Shown here piece after piece: positions 569 to 53,985 of a stretch of 64,000 nucleotides of DNA. The stretch is from an uncultured Bacteroidia bacterium (GTDB lineage Bacteria > Bacteroidota > Bacteroidia > NS11-12g > UBA9320). Both the position numbers and the translations under genes were made by a program. The stretch lies in NCBI GenBank assembly GCA_905478335.1, contig CAJQIC010000011.1:1-64000 (forward strand). Direction: 5' to 3'. Positions within the stretch are counted from its first letter, which is position 1. Each line of letters begins with the position of its first letter. Under the pieces are notes generated by a model. That model made no database searches and had not been told where the DNA came from. It worked only from the letters and a program-made list of their open reading frames with translations.

Positions 569-1207
569 TTGAAGCGTAGTAAAACATATCTTGTATGGGT
601 ATTAATCCTTGTAGCATGCTTTGCCACGTGGATTATGCTAAAGTCTGCTCGTACGAATAAAACGGTAGGCATACAGCCACTGGGTAGTTTCCCTCAAGTG
701 CAGATCGATTCTATTCAATCTGCCATCCAAACTCAATATGGTTACCAAGTAGTGGTATTGCCAAAACGAGAACTACCGGAAAATTGCTTTGTACAAATCA
801 AATCACCAAGATATCGCGCCGACAAGCTGTTGAAATATTTGAAAAGCATACGACCTGATTCTATTGATTTTATGTTGGGTTTAACGGCCACGGATATTTC
901 AACAACGAAAAAGGACAAATTAGGGCGTATCAAGCAGCCCAAATCAAAGTATGAAGATTGGGGAATCTTTGGTTTAGGTTATCGTCCTGGCAGCGCCTGT
1001 GTGGTTTCTTCCTATAGATTGTCTAAGCCCAATAAGACAATCGAAAGACTGCAGAAGGTAGTTGTGCACGAACTAGGACACAACCTTGGTTTGAAACATT
1101 GTACCTCTAAACTCAACTGTGTGATGGATGATGCTGCTGAAACCATTCGAACTGTTGACGCTGGCCACATCACCTTATGTGATAAGTGCAAGAATGTTTT
1201 GGACTAA
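569..1207 (+). CDS. Archaemetzincin-like zinc metallopeptidase (family M54)
   Basis: The C-terminal part carries HELGHNLGLKHC, followed by a further Cys, the VMDD segment with the met-turn methionine, and a final CDKC pair. This is the archaemetzincin signature HExxHxxGxxxC...CxM...CxxC: the three His bind catalytic zinc and the four Cys are expected to hold a second zinc. Family members are presumed proteases or aminopeptidases. The frame starts with TTG at 569 (no ATG or GTG fits upstream) and gives a basic start plus a hydrophobic segment at residues 8-24, so the protein is probably exported or membrane-anchored. That is unusual for the family, which is often described as cytosolic. It is 212 residues long, close to the usual 180-220. 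Confidence 0.87.
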   Translation: MKRSKTYLVWVLILVACFATWIMLKSARTNKTVGIQPLGSFPQVQIDSIQSAIQTQYGYQVVVLPKRELPENCFVQIKSPRYRADKLLKYLKSIRPDSIDFMLGLTATDISTTKKDKLGRIKQPKSKYEDWGIFGLGYRPGSACVVSSYRLSKPNKTIERLQKVVVHELGHNLGLKHCTSKLNCVMDDAAETIRTVDAGHITLCDKCKNVLD

Positions 1208-1666
1208 AGACGGAAGACGGAAGACTGGATATACTGACGTCGATTAGTGAATCATTCACTCATTCCACCTTCAATCCTTCAATCCTTCAATCATTCAGCC
1301 CTTCAAACATTCAGTCATTGGGAACTATCCATCAGGAGTTGGTTTGTTAAGAATATAGACTAAAGACTAAAGACGAAAGACTAAAGACTGGGTATGCTGA
1401 CGTCGATTATTGACCCATTCACTCATTCAGTCATTCAATCCTTCAATCCTTCAGACATTGGGAACTATCCATCAGGAGTTGGTTTGTTAAGAATTGAAAT
1501 TTGAAAATTGAGAGTTGATAATATTTTGACTCTGGACTGATTGACTAAAGACGTAGGACTAGAATTCTGTTCATCAAACATTCACTCATTCCACATTCAG
1601 TCATTCAATCCCTCAATCATTCAGCCCTTCAGACATTCAATCCTTCAATCCTTCAATCCCTCAACC
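1208..1666. repeat. Repeat island 1: degenerate 7-8 bp repeats between convergent genes
   Basis: This 459-bp gap holds no credible gene. From left to right it shows GACTAAA-type heptads (for example 1363-1390), blocks of CATTCACT and CAATCCTT octads, an about 140-bp unit present twice, a TTGAAAATTGAGAGTTG-like stretch at 1496-1520, a conserved core at 1521-1571, and a final run of CAATCCTT and CATTCA words to about 1660. The core is 51 bp and matches island 2 (8867-8917) at all but one position. The flanking genes converge on it. See findings for its relation to islands at 8.8, 28.2, 37.3 and 53.1 kb. Confidence 0.9.
1223..1494. repeat. Imperfect tandem duplication inside repeat island 1
   Basis: Two units share a left part (GACTGGATATACTGACGTCG at 1223 and GACTGGGTATGCTGACGTCG at 1386) and a right part of 39 bp that is identical at 1316-1354 and 1456-1494. 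Between them the number of CATTC and CAATCCTT words differs, so the units are unequal in length. The exact 39-bp identity next to variable short repeats suggests a recent duplication with later gain or loss of repeat words. Confidence 0.9.
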
Positions 1667-2539
1667 CTAGTAAGTCCTCGTCATATCTTCATCCACGCAA
1701 ATAATAAAGTCAGCGCGTCCTTTCGATTCTTCGTCTAGGCTGCTATTGTCTTCTTGGGTAACTGTTGCTATGGTGGCCACACGTGTGCCAGGCCGGTATT
1801 GCTCTAAGTACCAATAAATGCCTTCGTAATAGTCAGAATGAAAACTCCCGTTGTAATGAATAAATCGGGTGTTGTCACATATGTCGCACAATTGTGTGTT
1901 CAATGCGTTTATAATCGAATGCGCCATGGTAGCATCTTTCACAGCTTGGGCTTTAATGAGCTTAGGACTTCCATGGTCTCCCATCATTTTTAAAATCGCT
2001 TGATATCTAGGTAAATTTATGTCAAACGGAATAGGTAAAGGAGCAATCCATGCCTTTTCTTCATCAGGCAAGGTGTCTAGTGCAGTGAAGTCTTTTTTGT
2101 ATACCAAGCTCGCATAACGGCGCGGAATATTAGTTGCAATGAACTGATAACCAGAATCTTTAGCAAAATCAACCAATGGTTTATAATCCGTTTTATGATT
2201 GTTCCATAGCCTTGCAGTGGTGTCAAAACCTTTTTGATTGATACTGTCTTTTAAGTACAAGTTAAGCGCATCTTGATTGTCTCTTTCAATCATTTCGGCA
2301 CCAAGAATAAGGTCATAGTTCTTAGATAGGTCTTTGGTTACTTCTAATTCAAGCCAATGACTAATCGGGTTATCATGATATTCGCCAAACAGCGTAATTT
2401 CATTTTTAGATAACGTTTTAAGCATCTTTTTGTAGGATACTTTTTTACCCTTAGCGTTATAAATAACGTAACCGGATTTGTTTTGCGCAAAGCTGAATGA
2501 CGCACAAAATATCAAAAGTGCAGCGAGTAGGTTTTTCAT
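1667..2539 (-). CDS. ChaN family (Tiki/EreA-like superfamily) exported protein
   Basis: The protein is 290 residues long with a clear signal peptide (residues 1-18, cleavage after FSFA). The conserved landmarks of the ChaN/haem-binding-uptake family (Pfam Cofac_haem_bdg) follow: GEYHDNPISHW near residue 52, GAEMIERDNQ near residue 80, ATNIPRRYASLV in the middle, AQAVKDATMA and YNGSFHSDYYEG toward the end. Campylobacter ChaN binds haem; related Tiki proteins are metalloproteases, so the activity here is open. The two family motifs with Glu and His residues are intact. The gene lies 2 nt downstream of the DPP-IV-type peptidase on the same strand, so both are probably cotranscribed. Confidence 0.85.
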   Translation of the reverse strand: MKNLLAALLIFCASFSFAQNKSGYVIYNAKGKKVSYKKMLKTLSKNEITLFGEYHDNPISHWLELEVTKDLSKNYDLILGAEMIERDNQDALNLYLKDSINQKGFDTTARLWNNHKTDYKPLVDFAKDSGYQFIATNIPRRYASLVYKKDFTALDTLPDEEKAWIAPLPIPFDINLPRYQAILKMMGDHGSPKLIKAQAVKDATMAHSIINALNTQLCDICDNTRFIHYNGSFHSDYYEGIYWYLEQYRPGTRVATIATVTQEDNSSLDEESKGRADFIICVDEDMTRTY

Positions 2540-5901: not shown

Positions 5902-6075
5902 TTTTACGTTGTTTTCTTATTCAAGGTTAAAGTCAACATGACAATGGTGCTTATTACACCATACAGTACGAATGCTTTTTTAGGCATATACAAGTATACC
6001 ATTCCCTGTAAATCCGGTGCACTAGAAACTGTATATTTTTTTTGGTAACTTTACGCAATTCATTAAAACAACAAT

Positions 6076-8808
6076 ATGTTGAAAACCGTTATTACCGCCT
6101 GTTTGCTGCTTTTTTCACTCGTTTCTTTTAGTCAATTCACTTCACCTAGTGTACAGCTTACGCATAATCAGAACCGGTCAGGAGGCAGTCAAAGTCATGG
6201 TAAAGCAACGAATCATCCAACCCAATGCGGTGTTGATACGTTGGATTATGGCTATGAAAAGCTAATTGCAAATCTGTATGTGAATGGTTCAAACTCTTCA
6301 TTACGTGCGATAAACATTTCGTTGGGTTATAGACTCGGCCAGTTTTATACAACACCTGGAGACGTGACGATATCTGGTTTTAAATTTTATGCTTGGTCGT
6401 TAGACACCTCTGCCAATTTTGTTGACGTGTATTGCGAAATATATGAAGCTGGTGCAGACAGTCTGCCAAAAGGCACACCTTTAAGGGCAGATACCCTGCG
6501 AATAGATTCCACTTTCAGAAACGGCGTATTGGATAGTATTGCTCAGTTTGCCAGCTTTAAGCCGTATACAACGGACAAACCTTTTATAGTGGTTGTTCGA
6601 AGTGTAGACAGCATGCGGGTAGCCGTGGTGGCCAATGATTATATAAATCAAGATGGTTTTGGAGAGAATTATGCCTGTGGGTCTATAGGTGGCAGATGGT
6701 ATAGAAGTCTGAATCTCAATATCGGTGGTAATACGTTGGACTGTGATATGTTGTTAGAACCTTTCGTATCGTATAAACTCCATAATGAGTTTAGGTTAAC
6801 AGATTGCTACGACTATAAAGACTCTGTTTTTTTTAAGAATACCTCATCACCTTTCTATTTTAGCCCACAGTATAACATCTATAAGTTTTATGAAGACTTT
6901 AGAGGCTATAACTATGAGAGATATTGTCATCGTTGGAGCTACGGTTCTGGATTTTATTACAGTCAAGTAGAAGGAGGTACGAAATTTTCAAGTCCAATAA
7001 ACGTAAACATCGGTTTAAGAAGTATTCTATACAGTATGACGGGATCTCGTGCTTGTGAGGATACCACCGTTAAACCGTTTTCGTTTCAACCGGATCAGGT
7101 TGAAATACAAGGAGATAAAGACATTTGCTCTGGCAATACAGCCACATTGATTGGCCTAAGTACGGGGCAAATTCATTGGTATAAAACAGTTGTTGATACA
7201 ACCCCGTTGCTTATCTCGCCAGACTATGTGACACCAAATGCGTTGCAGGAAAATGATACTGTTTTTGCCCAAGCCATCAACAAGCATTGCAAATCAACAC
7301 GTAAACGACAGATTATTACGGTGACTGAAACACCTACACTACCAACAATCAAAGACGATTCGATTTGTTTGAATTCATTGGCCAACTTGGTTGCAACCAG
7401 TAAAATTGGTTCAACGCGGTGGTACGTTGATTCTACTACGCTAATTTCGAACCATACGGGTGATTTTTTCCAAGTTGGTCCGCTGACACAAGACACGTTC
7501 TTTTATGCCAAAACGGTTAACGGTAATTGTTCTCATGCAGGTAGGGTAAAAGTAAACGCATTTGTTAGTAACGCCTTTGCTCCAGACGAACCAAAAATTA
7601 GTTCAGACACCGCAATATGCTTGTTAGACGGTGATATTACGTTAAAAGCAACGGGTGCCAATACATTGCGTTGGTATGATGTAGCTGCTGGCGGAAACCC
7701 AATTGCTACTGGTGATACAACATTGACCTTTACACCAAATGAACGAGGAACTTATTATCGATATGTCGACGCGTATAATGGGATTTGTCCTAGTAGTAGA
7801 CTGCCGATCAAGGTAACCGTAAACCACTTCCCAACATTGTCTTCTATAGCTGATCAAGAGGCGTGTGTTGGAGAGGATATCATTGTGGAGTATAAAGATA
7901 TTCCTGGAAATATTGACTGGTACGACAGTGCTGTTGGTGGAAAATTGATAACTAAAGGTAAATTAGTCTTGTTCTCTAGCATTGTTAAATCTGAAACATA
8001 TTATCTTCAAACCTACCAAGGAAACTGCATTGACTCTGTTAGACACCAATGGAACTATACGGCAATACCATTTGGGAAAATTCAATCTTCGACCTTAGAT
8101 ACCCAAGCATGCGATATGCAGGTGCCTACATTAGAGGTTTCAACTGATGTTGGGACGGTGATATGGTATGATAACGAAGGAAATGAGATAAGTCGTGGTG
8201 ATGCATTAAGTCTTGACCCATTGGCAGAAGATGTTCAAGTATCCTACGAAATAGACAATAAAGGCTGTTTGACAGGTAAAACGGATCATATGGTTCATTG
8301 GCGGATTATGCCGGACGCCAACTATGATTACCAAGTCACGTGGAGAGATGTCACTTTTGCTTCTCGCCTAATTGATCAAGGCCAGTACATATGGGAATTC
8401 GATGACGGAACAGATACCTCAATGGGTACTGATGTTGAACATCATTATTACGACGACGGTAACTACAATGTTTCGTTAATGGTGGCGTCTCCATTTGATT
8501 GTATAGATACGGTTACAAAAACAATAACTATTAACTCAGCGGCCGTTCAAAACATAGACAACTCCACTATTAACGTTTATCCCAACCCCAATTCGGGCTT
8601 ATTTACACTAAAGCTTGCAGATGGTTTTAATCATGTTGATATAAACATTTACAATTCAGAAGGCCGAGAGGTATTTAGCCAAACTTTAGATGAAGGGTTA
8701 GGAGAGTACACCATCGACTTACGCAACAAGCAGCTTTCGAATGGTTTGTATATCTTGAAGGCAAATCAAGGCAGTCGTACTTCGGTTCTGAGACTAGTTG
8801 TTAATTGA
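6076..8808 (+). CDS. Large T9SS-secreted protein with Ig-like and PKD domains (910 aa)
   Basis: The protein has a signal peptide (residues 1-19, ending VSFS) and about 250 residues of unrecognised, beta-rich sequence. Several Ig-like repeats of the CHU_C-associated type follow (about residues 340-740), each with a WY (D/K) core such as RWYDVAAGGNPI and a Cys pair. Next is a PKD-like domain (YIWEFDDGTD to YYDDGNYNVSL, about 750-820) and a C-terminal type A sorting domain from about residue 830 (INVYPNPNSGLFTLK) to the end. It is therefore expected to be exported by the type IX system and attached to, or released from, the cell surface. The N-terminal region may be the functional part. It stands alone, with repeat island 2 directly after its stop. 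Confidence 0.88.
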   Translation: MLKTVITACLLLFSLVSFSQFTSPSVQLTHNQNRSGGSQSHGKATNHPTQCGVDTLDYGYEKLIANLYVNGSNSSLRAINISLGYRLGQFYTTPGDVTISGFKFYAWSLDTSANFVDVYCEIYEAGADSLPKGTPLRADTLRIDSTFRNGVLDSIAQFASFKPYTTDKPFIVVVRSVDSMRVAVVANDYINQDGFGENYACGSIGGRWYRSLNLNIGGNTLDCDMLLEPFVSYKLHNEFRLTDCYDYKDSVFFKNTSSPFYFSPQYNIYKFYEDFRGYNYERYCHRWSYGSGFYYSQVEGGTKFSSPINVNIGLRSILYSMTGSRACEDTTVKPFSFQPDQVEIQGDKDICSGNTATLIGLSTGQIHWYKTVVDTTPLLISPDYVTPNALQENDTVFAQAINKHCKSTRKRQIITVTETPTLPTIKDDSICLNSLANLVATSKIGSTRWYVDSTTLISNHTGDFFQVGPLTQDTFFYAKTVNGNCSHAGRVKVNAFVSNAFAPDEPKISSDTAICLLDGDITLKATGANTLRWYDVAAGGNPIATGDTTLTFTPNERGTYYRYVDAYNGICPSSRLPIKVTVNHFPTLSSIADQEACVGEDIIVEYKDIPGNIDWYDSAVGGKLITKGKLVLFSSIVKSETYYLQTYQGNCIDSVRHQWNYTAIPFGKIQSSTLDTQACDMQVPTLEVSTDVGTVIWYDNEGNEISRGDALSLDPLAEDVQVSYEIDNKGCLTGKTDHMVHWRIMPDANYDYQVTWRDVTFASRLIDQGQYIWEFDDGTDTSMGTDVEHHYYDDGNYNVSLMVASPFDCIDTVTKTITINSAAVQNIDNSTINVYPNPNSGLFTLKLADGFNHVDINIYNSEGREVFSQTLDEGLGEYTIDLRNKQLSNGLYILKANQGSRTSVLRLVVN

Positions 8809-9102
8809 TAGCTGATAGCTGATAGCTGATAGTTGAAAATTGATAGTTGAAAATTGAAAGTTGAAAATATTTTGACTCTGGACTGATTGACTAAAGACGC
8901 AGGACTAGAATTCTGTTTTTCAAACATTCATTCACTCATTCACTCATTCCACATTCACTCATTCAATCCTTCAATCCTTCAATCCTTCAATCCTTCAATC
9001 CTTCAATCCTTCAATCCTTCCAAATTAGCGTAAGGATATCAACAATTAAACCACTCCATACGGTAATTCAACATCGTGCTTTTAATATTGCTTACAATTC
9101 TT
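8809..9102. repeat. Repeat island 2
   Basis: Right after the stop codon comes a heptad run of GATAGCT words (8807-8830), then TTGAAAATTGATAG-type words (8831-8866), then the conserved 51-bp core at 8867-8917 (one mismatch to 1521-1571), then CATTCACT octads, and finally seven perfect CAATCCTT copies in a row at 8964-9019. From about 9025 the sequence is ordinary and probably holds the promoter of prmA. This is the only island lying between two genes of the same direction. Confidence 0.92.
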
Positions 9103-14370: not shown

Positions 14371-15002
14371 TAACAACCACAACTGTACTTTTAGCCATCG
14401 CGGCATACTTGCTTGGATCGATTCCTTCTGCTGTTTTGGCGGGCAAAGCTTTTTATGGTTTAGACGTTCGAGAACACGGAAGTAACAGTGCCGGGGCAAC
14501 AAATACCTTTCGCGTTTTAGGCAAGCCAGCAGGTAGTCTAGTGCTACTGTTGGATGTGTTTAAAGGTGCGACTGCGGCAAACTTGGTACTGTTCGGACCA
14601 GAGCTCGAATCATCAGAATATGTTGTTGCCTTTAAAATTGCTTTTGGTCTTTTGGCTGTCGTAGGTCACATTTATCCAGTGTTTGCTGGATTTAAGGGCG
14701 GTAAAGGTATTGCGTGTCTGTTGGGTATGGTTATCGCATTAGACCCAATTCTTGCGTTAGGCTGCTTAGTCGTTTTCTTAATAATCCTGATTACAACACA
14801 CATGGTATCGGCAGGTTCGATACTCGCTACATTGAGTTTCGGAATAATGACATATTTCAGATATGGATTGGATGAGCCCGTTTTACAAATTTTTGGCATC
14901 TTTGCAGTAATCTTAGTCTTGTACACGCACAGAGCAAACTTGAAACGCATCTGGCAAGGTGAAGAAAAGAAAATGTATCTATTTAAGAAAAGAAGTGAAT
15001 AA
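14367..15002 (+). CDS. plsY: Glycerol-3-phosphate acyltransferase PlsY
   Basis: PlsY acylates position 1 of glycerol 3-phosphate with acyl-phosphate at the inner membrane, the first step of phospholipid synthesis. The three conserved loops are present: GSIPSAVLAGK near residue 18, the Arg-Ser-Asn loop REHGSNSAGATNTFRVLGK near 37-55, and GFKGGKGIA near 110. Five to six membrane segments separate them and the length (211) is normal. The start ATG overlaps the stop of the preceding giant gene (ATGA), which suggests translational coupling; the clpS start lies 1 nt after its stop. Confidence 0.95.
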   Translation: MITTTTVLLAIAAYLLGSIPSAVLAGKAFYGLDVREHGSNSAGATNTFRVLGKPAGSLVLLLDVFKGATAANLVLFGPELESSEYVVAFKIAFGLLAVVGHIYPVFAGFKGGKGIACLLGMVIALDPILALGCLVVFLIILITTHMVSAGSILATLSFGIMTYFRYGLDEPVLQIFGIFAVILVLYTHRANLKRIWQGEEKKMYLFKKRSE

Positions 15003-15003
15003 C

Positions 15004-15294
15004 GTGCTTACTTACAATTCAGACGTATCTACCAAAGAAGAAGTTGAGGTCATTGAAGACCTGATAGGCGGATATGCATTGGTTATTTTTAATGACGATG
15101 TAAACACTTTCGATCATGTTATTGATTGTTTGATGAAATACTGCGAACACACTCCTGAGCAAGCAGAACAGTGTTCAGTAATCATTCACTTCAAGGGCAA
15201 ATGCGCCGTCAAGCACGGATCAACTAAATCCCTATCTCCAATCTGCGATGCGCTTTGCAGAAAAGGGTTATCCGCAACCGTTGAAATAGTATAA
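15004..15294 (+). CDS. clpS: ClpS adaptor protein
   Basis: ClpS delivers N-degron substrates to the ClpAP protease and inhibits some other substrates. The core is IFNDDVNTFDHVIDCLMKY (the NDD and the following helix form the N-end binding pocket), then EQAEQCSVIIHFKGKCAVKHG. Two GTG starts are possible. The one at 14959 lies inside plsY and adds 15 basic residues; the one at 15004 is 1 nt after the plsY stop and gives 96 residues, close to the usual size, so I chose it. Cysteines are unusually frequent for the family (six). Confidence 0.9.
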   Translation: MLTYNSDVSTKEEVEVIEDLIGGYALVIFNDDVNTFDHVIDCLMKYCEHTPEQAEQCSVIIHFKGKCAVKHGSTKSLSPICDALCRKGLSATVEIV

Positions 15295-15319
15295 TTGATT
15301 TCACAGTAGCTAAAACTTC

Positions 15320-20706: not shown

Positions 20707-20721
20707 ATCGAGTAAAAACCT

Positions 20722-21243
20722 ATGCCCTTAATACCTATGCCCTTAATAGAAACAATTCCAGAATACTTCAAACCATACGTAAGTAAAGTCTTTTCTACAA
20801 CTGCCTACAATGCGCTAGAGGAGCAATGGGAAGAGATGCGTCAGACATTTGTTTCAATGACAGAAGAAAAGTCGAATTACCGTTATGATGAAGGCAAGTG
20901 GACACCAAAGCAAATATTACAACACCTTATTGATGCGGAAAGGATATTAAGTCAACGTGCAATGCGATTTGCGAGAAAAGACATGACGCAATTGCCTGGC
21001 TATGATCACAATAGTTATGTCGATGTAGCTGATGTTTCAGACCGGACTATTACAGACTTATGGGATGAATTCCATGCCGTGAGAATTTCAACCTTGTTTA
21101 TGTATAAAAGCTTTAAGGCGGCTGAACTGAAACGAGAAGGATTTGCCAACGGACTGGTTTTAAGCGTTGAAAACCAGGGTTTTATTATTGCTGGACATGC
21201 TTTGCATCATACCCAAGTTATTCGGGAACGCTACTTAGTGTAA
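20722..21243 (+). CDS. DinB/YfiT-like four-helix metal protein
   Basis: DinB-family proteins are four-helix bundles with a three-His metal site; many act in thiol transfer (bacillithiol or mycothiol transferases), others have no known activity. The markers are KWTPKQILQHLIDAERI (first His), the LPGYDHNSYVD loop, and HALHHTQVIRERYLV (last His pair). The start codon is duplicated: a perfect 15-bp tandem repeat, CCTATGCCCTTAATA at 20719-20733 and 20734-20748, gives two in-frame ATGs five codons apart, so the protein has 173 or 168 residues. Its 3' end overlaps the convergent miaE gene by 9 nt. Confidence 0.82.
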   Translation: MPLIPMPLIETIPEYFKPYVSKVFSTTAYNALEEQWEEMRQTFVSMTEEKSNYRYDEGKWTPKQILQHLIDAERILSQRAMRFARKDMTQLPGYDHNSYVDVADVSDRTITDLWDEFHAVRISTLFMYKSFKAAELKREGFANGLVLSVENQGFIIAGHALHHTQVIRERYLV

Positions 21244-28198: not shown

Positions 28199-28615
28199 GC
28201 CATATCTAGAGCACAAGAGCAAAGAAAATAGAATAGAGAACATAGACTTTCTGTAGTTAGCCATTGGGAGTTGGCCACTAGGAATTAGCCACTAGGAATT
28301 AGATTAACGTTTGCTGTGGATATACTAAGTGCACCCTTTATTCCATTATTCCGACATTCAATCCTTCAATCCTTCAATCCTCCAATCCTTCAAACATTCC
28401 GACATTCAGTCCTTCAAACATTCCGAAATTAGCTTGTAGAGACTATAGATAATATTCTGACTAATGACTAATGACTAATTGACTAAGGACGCAGGACGAT
28501 AATTCTGTTCTTCAATCCTTCAATCCTTCAATCCTTCAAACATTCCGACATTCAATCCTACAATCCTACAATCCTACAATCCTCCAATCCCTCACTCCTC
28601 CAATCCTTCCTACAT
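28199..28615. repeat. Repeat island 3 between convergent genes
   Basis: A 417-bp gap with no gene. It begins with TTAGCCA/CTAGGAATTAG words (28254-28303, with GCCACTAGGAATTAG twice), then CAATCCTT and ACATTCCG words, then GACTAATGACTAAT heptads joining the conserved core at about 28457-28509, then a second octad run. In that run three copies read CAATCCTA (28553, 28561, 28569), so a point variant has spread locally. The flanking genes (YkuK and dgkA) converge here. Confidence 0.92.
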
Positions 28616-37258: not shown

Positions 37259-37496
37259 GCGTTTTGCTGTTGGGGCGCTAAGCTTTTTGCATTTAGGTAA
37301 GGCTATGCAGAATGCATTTCTACATTTAACATTTTACATTTCGGCCGCAGGCCGACTATGAGTTGCTTCATTTCCTCTCAGGTTGGTTATGCTTTATTAC
37401 GGTCTTAGTAGTTTGGCTTTTAAGAAATCTGAAGCTTCTAATTCCTACTGCCTAACTCGTAAATGCTAACTGCTAATAGCCAATAGCTAAACAAAA
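37259..37496. repeat. Repeat island 4 (short form) between convergent genes
   Basis: A 238-bp gap with no gene. On the right (37436-37490) are CTAATTCCTA, TGCTAACTGCTAATAGCC-type words; read on the minus strand they match the TTAGGAATTAG words of islands 3 and 5. Around 37318-37342 are TTTAACATTTTACATTTC words, and a small GC hairpin CGGCC-GCA-GGCCG at 37342-37354 has no T-run after it. The core and the CAATCCTT run are absent. So this island resembles only part of the others. Confidence 0.6.
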
Positions 37497-52138: not shown

Positions 52139-53052
52139 CCCAAAACACTTCCAACAAGACATTGATTGTTGTCGGAGGGCCTACGGCATCTGGCAAGACG
52201 GCATTAGGTATTTCAATAGCGCAGCACTTTAACACAGACATTGTATCTGCCGACTCAAGGCAATTTTACTCCGAATTAAACATTGGCGTAGCGAGACCTT
52301 CAGAAGGTGAGTTAAGTGCCATCAAACATCATTTTATTGCGCACAAATCTATACACGACTATTACTCTGCGGGCGAATTTGAGCGTGATGCTATAAAAGT
52401 CCTGAATAAGATTTTCGTAACCAACGATTACGCTGTAATGGTAGGAGGGAGTGGATTGTTTATTAATGCCGTATTGCATGGTTTTCATGAGGCACCTAAA
52501 GACGATGGGTCGGTTCGCAAAGCCGCAGACCAATTATATAAACGCGAAGGGATTGATGGCCTTGTGAAACGATTAACTAGCGTTGATCCAGACCATGCAG
52601 CTGTTATTGACCGTCAGAATCCTCAGCGGTTAATGCGCGCGATTGAACGTGTTGAAATTTCTGGAAAAACACATCAACAGCTCACTCAAAACGAAATAAC
52701 AAAGCGGGCTTTTAATATTGTCGAAATAGCCATTGAAGATGAACGCAAGGCGTTGTATGAAAGAATTAACCAACGCGTAGACCAAATGATGGAAATGGGT
52801 TTGTTGAAAGAGGTGAAATCATTAGTGCCATACAAAGATTTAAATGCCTTAAAAACAGTAGGCTACGCTGAATTATTTGAATACTTGGATGGTGAATTAA
52901 CTTTAGAAGAAGCCGTAGAAAAAATCAAGCAAAACACACGCCGCTATGCCAAACGGCAGATCACTTGGTTTAAGAATAAGACTGAAAGTGTTTGGATTCC
53001 AAGAGATGCGTTTGATAAGGTTGTTGCGTTTATTGAAGGTACTAGGAGTTAG
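52135..53052 (+). CDS. miaA: tRNA dimethylallyltransferase MiaA
   Basis: MiaA transfers an isopentenyl group from dimethylallyl diphosphate to A37 of tRNAs reading U-starting codons. The P-loop is GGPTASGKTA (residues 13-22), followed by IVSADSRQFY, the Tyr-containing KHHFIAHKSIHDYYSAGEF segment, VGGSGLFINA and RQNPQRLMRAIERVEISG; NTRRYAKRQITWF at the end binds tRNA. The start is TTG 52135 overlapping the preceding stop (TTGA); no ATG fits. It has 305 residues, as usual. Substrate for the two miaE products in the same window. Confidence 0.95.
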   Translation: MTQNTSNKTLIVVGGPTASGKTALGISIAQHFNTDIVSADSRQFYSELNIGVARPSEGELSAIKHHFIAHKSIHDYYSAGEFERDAIKVLNKIFVTNDYAVMVGGSGLFINAVLHGFHEAPKDDGSVRKAADQLYKREGIDGLVKRLTSVDPDHAAVIDRQNPQRLMRAIERVEISGKTHQQLTQNEITKRAFNIVEIAIEDERKALYERINQRVDQMMEMGLLKEVKSLVPYKDLNALKTVGYAELFEYLDGELTLEEAVEKIKQNTRRYAKRQITWFKNKTESVWIPRDAFDKVVAFIEGTRS

Positions 53053-53190
53053 GAATTAGGGGTTTAATTTAAGACTAAAGACCAAAGACTAAAGACTGAT
53101 GAGATTCTTCGGTTCTCCTGACGTCTAACCTCTGAATGACGTTCTTGTTGTAATCAGTTTGCGTATTATCTAACTCTCAACTTTCAATTC
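53053..53190. repeat. Repeat island 5 between convergent genes
   Basis: A 138-bp gap without a gene. On the left GGAGTTAGGAATTAGG is followed by GACTAAAGACCAAAGACTAAAG (53073-53098), the same heptad words as islands 1-3. On the right (53170-53205) the words CTCAACTTTCAATTCTCAACTATCAATTT are, on the other strand, the TTGATAGTTGAGAATTG words seen in islands 1 and 2. So this island is bounded by opposite-strand copies of the two left-arm motifs. The core and CAATCCTT run are absent. Confidence 0.8.
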
Positions 53191-53985
53191 TCAACTATCA
53201 ATTTCAGATAATAATTTGTTGATATAGGTCGGAGTATGTTGCAAACGACTGCCATACCAGCTAAACATTTCTCCGTCTACCAAAACCACTGTGGAGTTTG
53301 GAAATTGGTCTGCTATGGCACTTTGATGCGCTTCCTTAAATGGAAAAGGTTCGGAAGACAAAAAGATATAGGAAGGGTTGATGTTTCGAATATCCGACAC
53401 GCTCAACTCGGGATACCTAGCTTGGTTTTGGATAGCGTTTTTAAATCCGGATTTTTCCAAAACATCATGGATAAATGTGTTCAATCCAACACCGTAATAC
53501 GGGTCTTTCCAAATTAAATACAATACATCATTTATTCCCGAATTAGTAGTTATTAAACGATTAAATGCGCGCTCCGTGTCAAAAATGAGTTTGTCAGTCA
53601 GGCTTGTTTTATGAAAGATGTGACCCATTGAACGCAGCATATCATACGAGTCGTTTATCGTATTAATATCGCTCATCCACACCGGAAATTCAGCTTGTAA
53701 TGTTTTAATCTGATCGGCTTCATTCTCTTCTTTGTTACCGATGATCAGATCCGGTTGCGACGCACGAATGGCGTCTAATTGCAACTTCTTTGTACCACCG
53801 ATTTTCTTGGCGTTTTTAAACTCGTCTGAAGGATGTATGCAAAAAACGGTTTGACCGATTGGTCTAACACCACGGTAGTATAACAACTCTGTTTGGGAAG
53901 GAACAAGGGAAACTACCTTCTTGGGTATACCCCGTAACTCAATCTGATGCCCCATTTGATCGGTATAGTGATGCAATTGAGACAC
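53191..53985 (-). CDS. BtuF-like helical-backbone metal-receptor protein without signal peptide
   Basis: The sequence matches the periplasmic binding proteins of cobalamin and iron-siderophore ABC transporters: RGIPKKVVSLVPSQTELLYYRG, QPDLIIGNKEEN, WKDPYYGVGLNTFIHDVLEKSGF, and ISNINPSY-like DIRNINPSYIFLSSEP. It starts at GTG 53985 with a hydrophilic N-terminus MSQLHHYTDQMGHQIEL, so there is no signal peptide and no lipobox. No transporter permease or ATPase gene is next to it. It may work in the cytosol, for example in corrinoid or metal handling, or the true exported start may have been lost. Next upstream is the cystathionine beta-synthase gene, 8 nt away. Confidence 0.82.
   Translation of the reverse strand: MSQLHHYTDQMGHQIELRGIPKKVVSLVPSQTELLYYRGVRPIGQTVFCIHPSDEFKNAKKIGGTKKLQLDAIRASQPDLIIGNKEENEADQIKTLQAEFPVWMSDINTINDSYDMLRSMGHIFHKTSLTDKLIFDTERAFNRLITTNSGINDVLYLIWKDPYYGVGLNTFIHDVLEKSGFKNAIQNQARYPELSVSDIRNINPSYIFLSSEPFPFKEAHQSAIADQFPNSTVVLVDGEMFSWYGSRLQHTPTYINKLLSEIDS

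Follow-up and report, generated by a model that had tools for sequence, protein, structure and literature searches.

Tandem 7- and 8-bp repeats form islands at gene junctions of an uncultured member of the Bacteroidota, and the observation is confirmed as real and genome-wide. We tentatively read these islands, with a probability of roughly 0.4 and from sequence comparison, as an intergenic repeat mosaic that would be born by slippage, homogenised by recombination and kept at gene borders, perhaps ending converging transcripts there. The window, i.e. the 64,000-nt stretch of DNA that was analysed, is C11:1-64000 in an assembly of 2.78 Mb and 74 contigs (hereafter genome G000), whose miaA has as its closest named relative the MAG bin.63 (72% amino-acid identity). 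All counts come from a 1.1-Mb sample of this 2.78-Mb genome, part of the sample being picked for island matches, and genes on the sampled DNA were called with a simple dicodon caller. Regions unselected for islands, the window included, were analysed separately for enrichment.

The five intergenic gaps and the word families that had been picked out by an earlier sequence-only reading of the window are all present. All five gaps contain the words, the one at 37259-37496 being a weak member that falls below the array threshold. Four of them lie between convergent genes, as had been claimed, and the exception (8809-9075) is co-directional. The islands are flanked by ordinary genes of the chromosome (M54 peptidase, ChaN-like, T9SS-tail protein, prmA, diacylglycerol kinase, miaE-like, miaA, and TroA-like). 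The islands are laid out as follows.

569-1207, plus strand: M54-type metalloprotease gene, left of island 1
1203..1666, no strand: island 1 in a convergent gap, three tandem composite units (heptads, core, octads)
1203..1231, plus strand: unit 1 heptads GACTAAA/GACGGAA, the first of which holds the stop TAA (1205-1207) of the left gene
1250..1319, minus strand: unit 1 octads, TTCAATCC on the plus strand and GGATTGAA on the minus strand
1320..1354, no strand: 35-bp spacer, copy 1, identical to 1460-1494, with partial copies in contig C25
1349..1390, plus strand: unit 2 heptads GACTAAA
1409..1453, minus strand: unit 2 octads
1460..1494, no strand: 35-bp spacer, copy 2
1495..1522, plus strand: unit 3 heptads TTGAAAA/TTGATAA
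1521..1571, plus strand: 51-bp core, copy 1
1574..1668, minus strand: unit 3 octads, extending to the 3' end of the ChaN-like gene
1667-2539, minus strand: ChaN-like gene, right of island 1
8806..8868, plus strand: island 2 heptads TTGATAGC/TTGAAAA, the array opening with the T9SS-tail gene's stop TGA (8806-8808)
8867..8917, plus strand: second copy of the 51-bp core, differing from copy 1 at one base
8928..9026, minus strand: island 2 octads (TTCAATCC on the plus strand), ~50-80 bp upstream of prmA (plus strand)
28257..28302, plus strand: island 3 heptads, first set (TTAGCCACTAGGAA words)
28348..28430, minus strand: island 3 octads, first set
28458..28490, plus strand: island 3 heptads, second set (TGACTAA)
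28463..28514, plus strand: core-like copy 3 (50 bits), from a profile search
28510..28609, minus strand: island 3 octads, second set, extending to the 3' end of the diacylglycerol kinase gene
~37442..37496, minus strand: island 4 (weak, below the array threshold), degenerate heptads (CTAANNN) at the miaE-like gene's 3' end
53040..53061, plus strand: island 5 left edge, TTAGGAATTAGG words containing the miaA stop (53050-53052)
53071..53097, plus strand: island 5 GACTAAA heptads
53170..53203, minus strand: island 5 right edge, TTGATAGTTGAGAATTGAAAGTTGAGAG on the minus strand, containing the stop of the TroA-like gene (53191-53193)

The repeats often begin at or in the stop codon of a gene (1205-1207, 8806-8808, 53050-53052, and 53191-53193), and the islands thus start a few bases within reading frames. 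The stretch at 1208-1666, previously described as one island with a core, consists of three tandem units, two of which have another core (GACTGGATATACTGACGTCGATTA) and share the exact 35-bp spacer (1320-1354, 1460-1494). The 51-bp core, said to occur at 1521-1571 and 8867-8917 with a single difference, indeed differs there at one base (T/C, position 34 of 51), and a looser copy that had been placed near 28457-28509 was recovered at 28463-28514 when searching with a profile. This core is itself a chain of GACTNNN heptads. There are ~15 copies in G000 and none in four congeners, which supports the earlier suggestion of a replicating, non-coding repeat, one that has spread through this genome. 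One conserved core as the functional unit was ruled out, because congeners have otherwise similar islands without it. Elsewhere in the window (20718-20748), an exact 15-bp tandem duplication (ACCTATGCCCTTAAT) doubles the start codon of a gene called at 20737; the orthologous place in the congener G001 has a single copy.

Related islands were found genome-wide beyond the window, within the 1.1 Mb sampled. A set of 550 gaps (110 kb) holds 39 arrays of period 7 and 38 of period 8, versus none in 20 dinucleotide shuffles of these gaps, and periods 4-6 and 9-12 gave 0-1 arrays in the same DNA. Intergenic tandem arrays in the G000 sample have periods of 7, 8 and their multiples, and almost no others, and no arrays were found within genes in G000, G001, G002, or G004. 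In all sampled DNA, arrays are borne by 22/106 convergent, 17/519 co-directional, and 9/142 divergent gaps, i.e. 22 of 106 convergent gaps versus 26 of 661 others (odds ratio 6.4, p = 2e-8). When only the regions unselected for islands are considered, window included, the counts are 5/49, 1/245, and 3/69, respectively (odds ratio 8.8, p = 0.003). The enrichment at convergent junctions that had been predicted from the window was therefore borne out in both sets. The order proposed for the islands (purine heptads, core, then pyrimidine octads) matches what is seen in 9 of the 12 two-armed gaps, in which the left end is G-rich and the right end C-rich on the plus strand regardless of gene directions. 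Contig ends lie within 300 bp of an array in 6 of 63 cases, where ~1.6 would be expected (G000 C33, C34, C60, C62, C73, and C32), which suggests that the assembly was probably broken by islands; the same repeat sequence is found where C34 ends and where C33 starts.

The main words are TTGADAR, GACTNNN, and GGATTGAA, and they are usually located at gene 3' ends. Octads conserve a G..TGAA backbone and the main heptads conserve TTGA, with TGA among the most constant positions in both the octads and the TTGA heptads. Thirteen arrays in G000 and G001 contain the gene's own stop codon. The G-rich strand runs outward in all 24 arrays lying up to 15 nt from a stop, and in 11 of the 12 that are nearest to a start, 16-100 nt off. 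In single-sign gaps, arrays touching the stop (up to 9 nt) point outward in 14/15 cases in G000 and 4/5 in G001, versus 4/9 and 2/5, respectively, for arrays 18-120 nt from the stop. Outward polarity as a rule for every array was consequently rejected, since it is near-absolute only for arrays touching the stop and near random further out. Stop triplets at gene stops number 13.9 per 100 nt in the outward direction versus 2.4 in the inward direction.

Many sense transcripts of the islands have the composition of a Rho site, i.e. 70-80 nt of unstructured RNA with more C than G. A 78-nt window in which C minus G is at least 0.2 is present at 37% of convergent and 50% of co-directional gene ends with an island, versus 9 and 4%, respectively, of island-free gene ends. 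Rho-dependent terminators are C-rich, G-poor, and unstructured over 70-100 nt (RhoTermPredict features, PMC6407284); tandem repeats are not a defining trait of Rho sites, and the likeness is one of composition. A rho gene is present in all four genomes checked. The islands lack the GC-rich hairpin followed by a U-tract that defines an intrinsic terminator, and hairpin terminators are found in 4/33 convergent gaps with an island versus 15/39 without (p = 0.016), or 3/33 versus 10/39 (p = 0.12) with a stricter energy cut-off. This suggests that islands may stand in for terminators. Many convergent gaps have neither an island nor a hairpin, and hence neither is required. In a co-directional gap at L048 ~8426-8716, a clear hairpin-plus-U-tract terminator is followed downstream by a reversed composite island. 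A bidirectional 3'-end role, as put forward in the sequence-only reading, is possible through an unstructured, C-rich, Rho-type route rather than through hairpins.

The word families are common to G000 and two congeners, G001 among them, and other genomes of the family are mostly without matches, with few arrays in small samples. The octads at the prmA junction are TTCAATCC/TTCAGACC in G001 and of the TAATTCTA type in G004, and none were found there in G002 by synteny comparison. At the miaE-like junction, stop-bearing words point inward in all four species and their sequences differ. At several junctions shared by congeners, the arrays differ in length, and in one congener the words differ too. 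Among 123 adjacencies conserved between G000 and G001, arrays are present in both genomes at 5, in one only at 3, and in neither at 115, proportions that carry a bias, as array matches guided the choice of some of these regions. The median change in gap length between the two genomes is 87 bp for convergent, 2 bp for co-directional, and 10 bp for divergent gaps. Island 2 matches island 1, its paralogue in the same genome, at 213 bits and the orthologous junction in G001 at 69 bits, which points to concerted evolution within the genome. An uncalled reading frame lies in a convergent gap at G001 L157 ~14873-15318 and G000 L051 ~5957-6415; in G001, by L157:14873, an octad array replaces its C terminus and stop, where G000 has other codons. 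In G004 (L149-L152, L164-L166), nine intergenic period-6 arrays occur beside periods 7 and 8, and are a different dialect of the same repeat habit. Across the class, TTGADAR heptads have patchy matches in 31 of 198 genomes, including 53, 27, and 15 heptad-run matches in G143, G139, and G140, respectively, which belong to unrelated families; only this patchiness was used, because a reversed-pattern control is not independent for repeats.

According to the reading that we prefer, the islands would be a lineage-specific mosaic of long 7- and 8-bp simple sequence repeats. Slippage would create the arrays and alter their length, and blocks of heptads, core, and octads would be copied among islands by homologous recombination, making islands of one genome more alike than orthologues. 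The islands are confined to intergenic DNA, chiefly tail-to-tail junctions, and at contact with a gene their G-rich, C-poor, stop-bearing strand runs outward and often provides the stop codon. They would persist, most likely, by being harmless and mildly useful. Transcription entering a gene from outside would produce unstructured, C-rich, G-free RNA of the Rho-site type, so that islands could help end converging transcripts, and this putative termination would replace hairpin terminators. Several observations weigh against a role at borders. The polarity fades off the stop, which fits a mere coding-end filter; the deficit of terminators is modest and not significant at the stricter cut-off; many convergent gaps do without island and hairpin alike; and the fast turnover in length looks unconstrained.

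Purely neutral repeats, arising by slippage and ectopic recombination, are nearly as likely as this border reading. Their pile-up at tail-to-tail junctions would follow from there being no promoter or ribosome site to disturb, and their polarity from the fate of arrays that touch a gene end in the open orientation, which would append a repetitive tail to the protein, so that only the stop-bearing orientation survives. The restriction of near-absolute polarity to arrays touching the stop, the large length turnover, and the octad array that took over the C terminus and stop of the uncalled frame in G001 are all in line with a neutral account. So is the stop content of the words, which is mostly compositional (52/59 stop-bearing units versus 45.6 expected from letter permutation). 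Neutrality explains poorly that polarity is also seen on the start side, beyond the reach of a coding filter, and that the same rule holds in Xanthomonas and Nostoc, the Xanthomonas word GGGAATC containing no stop codon (PMC4692102); island gaps also have fewer terminators. The constancy of TGA, the arrays holding their own stop, and the excess of outward stop triplets would alternatively suit arrays that end translation, in which a word length not divisible by 3 places stops in all frames past the gene and catches read-through or frameshifted ribosomes. However, letter permutation explains most of this signal (24/29 stop-bearing units versus 23.8 expected outside G000; 28/30 versus 21.8 within G000, where words are not independent), the stop is not kept in GACTNNN heptads, and both the size of the islands (200-900 bp) and the arrays near start codons are left unexplained. 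Selection for stop codons was rejected as mostly accounted for by the base composition of the words, and we regard translation-stop arrays as very improbable.

Transcripts from either side had been proposed to fold into long imperfect hairpins acting as bidirectional intrinsic terminators, based on the partial complementarity of heptads and octads (GACTAAAG versus CTTCAATC, 6/8). This proposal fails, since the RNA of the islands is not consistently more structured than shuffled RNA (z from +3.7 to -2.2), the minus strand of unit 3 leaning weakly that way (z -2.2). The sense strands of convergent islands 1 and 3 are even less stably folded than their shuffled counterparts (z +2.5 and +3.7; +3.2 for island 3 in a second folding computation), no Rfam match reaches the gathering score in the window, and hairpin-plus-U-tract terminators are few in islands, which leaves the hairpin reading with almost no probability. 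REP/BIME and MITE elements are likewise intergenic repeats dispersed near the 3' ends of genes, and the REP/BIME unit is palindromic and comes with a RAYT (Y1) transposase. The dispersal of the core in one species would be compatible with such a non-autonomous element moved by a transposase. This is highly improbable, however, because neither a palindrome nor fixed ends are seen, no RAYT gene (Y1_Tnp match) was found in G000 or G001, and, in place of a clean empty site, the orthologous junctions examined in G001 have arrays or octad words that lack the core. A role at the DNA level, as an array bound by a nucleoid protein, gyrase or the like where transcription converges, would agree with the convergent enrichment and with backbones that hardly vary (G..TGAA every 8 bp, TTGA every 7 bp). 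We consider it very unlikely, as the words at one junction differ between species, the period is not helical, and there is no candidate protein. A broader reading, rather unlikely, is that G-rich-outward 7-8 bp arrays are a general, convergently evolved class of gene-border elements that block transcription by means of Rho or some equivalent. Skew and period, and not the detailed sequence, would define the element, the words being rewritten within a genus and place and polarity kept, and the class would span the Bacteroidota studied here plus the published Xanthomonas and Nostoc repeats.

The closest known case is that of the intergenic tandem heptamers GGGAATC and GGGGA(C/T)T of Xanthomonas and Nostoc (Rehm et al. 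2015, PMC4692102). On the coding strand these follow stops by up to 50 bp and overlap them, and on the non-coding strand they precede starts. They occur at the same gene pairs in two species with changed length and sequence, and have no link to mobile elements; transcript ends are commoner at those that form G-quadruplexes (G4). The G-rich-outward rule is common to both systems, here fading farther from stops. In contrast to the single G-quadruplex words of Xanthomonas and Nostoc, we found many words, heptads together with octads, and a heptad-core-octad plan. The main units here (GGATTGAA, TTGATAG, and GACTAAA) have a longest G-run of 2 and hence no G-tract of 3 or more, unlike those G4 heptamers, and convergent enrichment is not among the traits reported for them in the available text.

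Within the Bacteroidetes, intergenic stop-bearing heptamers have been described as TAACTGA direct repeats in five members, with larger heptamer assemblages in Gramella and Elizabethkingia and a tendency of contigs to end in the repeats (MacGregor 2015, PMC4679880). In Beggiatoaceae, TAACTGA is one fixed word, mostly located directly upstream of start codons (PMC4679880); the islands have other words, mostly at gene 3' ends, and do not belong to that class. They do belong with long intergenic simple sequence repeats of the heptamer kind, being tandem beyond chance, intergenic only, and found at shared junctions with changed length. Long simple sequence repeats with units of 5-11 nt, among which 7-mers are over-represented outside genes, have been attributed to slippage (Mrazek et al. 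2007, as summarised in PMC4679880). Compared with that summary, the repeats here are degenerate, joined with 8-mers, and have cores common across loci.

Gene-border repeats of 7-8 bp recur, with one and the same strand polarity, across unrelated bacteria. The genus offers a natural series, in which the same junctions have other lengths or words among several congeners, allowing a composition-dependent function to be separated from a sequence-dependent one. If the islands end transcription, they would be terminators invisible to annotation pipelines; if they are neutral, they show how fast slippage and recombination can remake the 3' ends of genes, up to the provision of stop codons. Intergenic heptamer arrays were already known (PMC4679880; PMC4692102), as was the overlap with stop codons, noted in Xanthomonas. 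As far as the compared literature goes, in the parts available, what is new relative to published heptamer repeats is the composite 7+8 plan that includes a dispersed core, together with the convergent enrichment and the replacement of words at fixed junctions within a genus.
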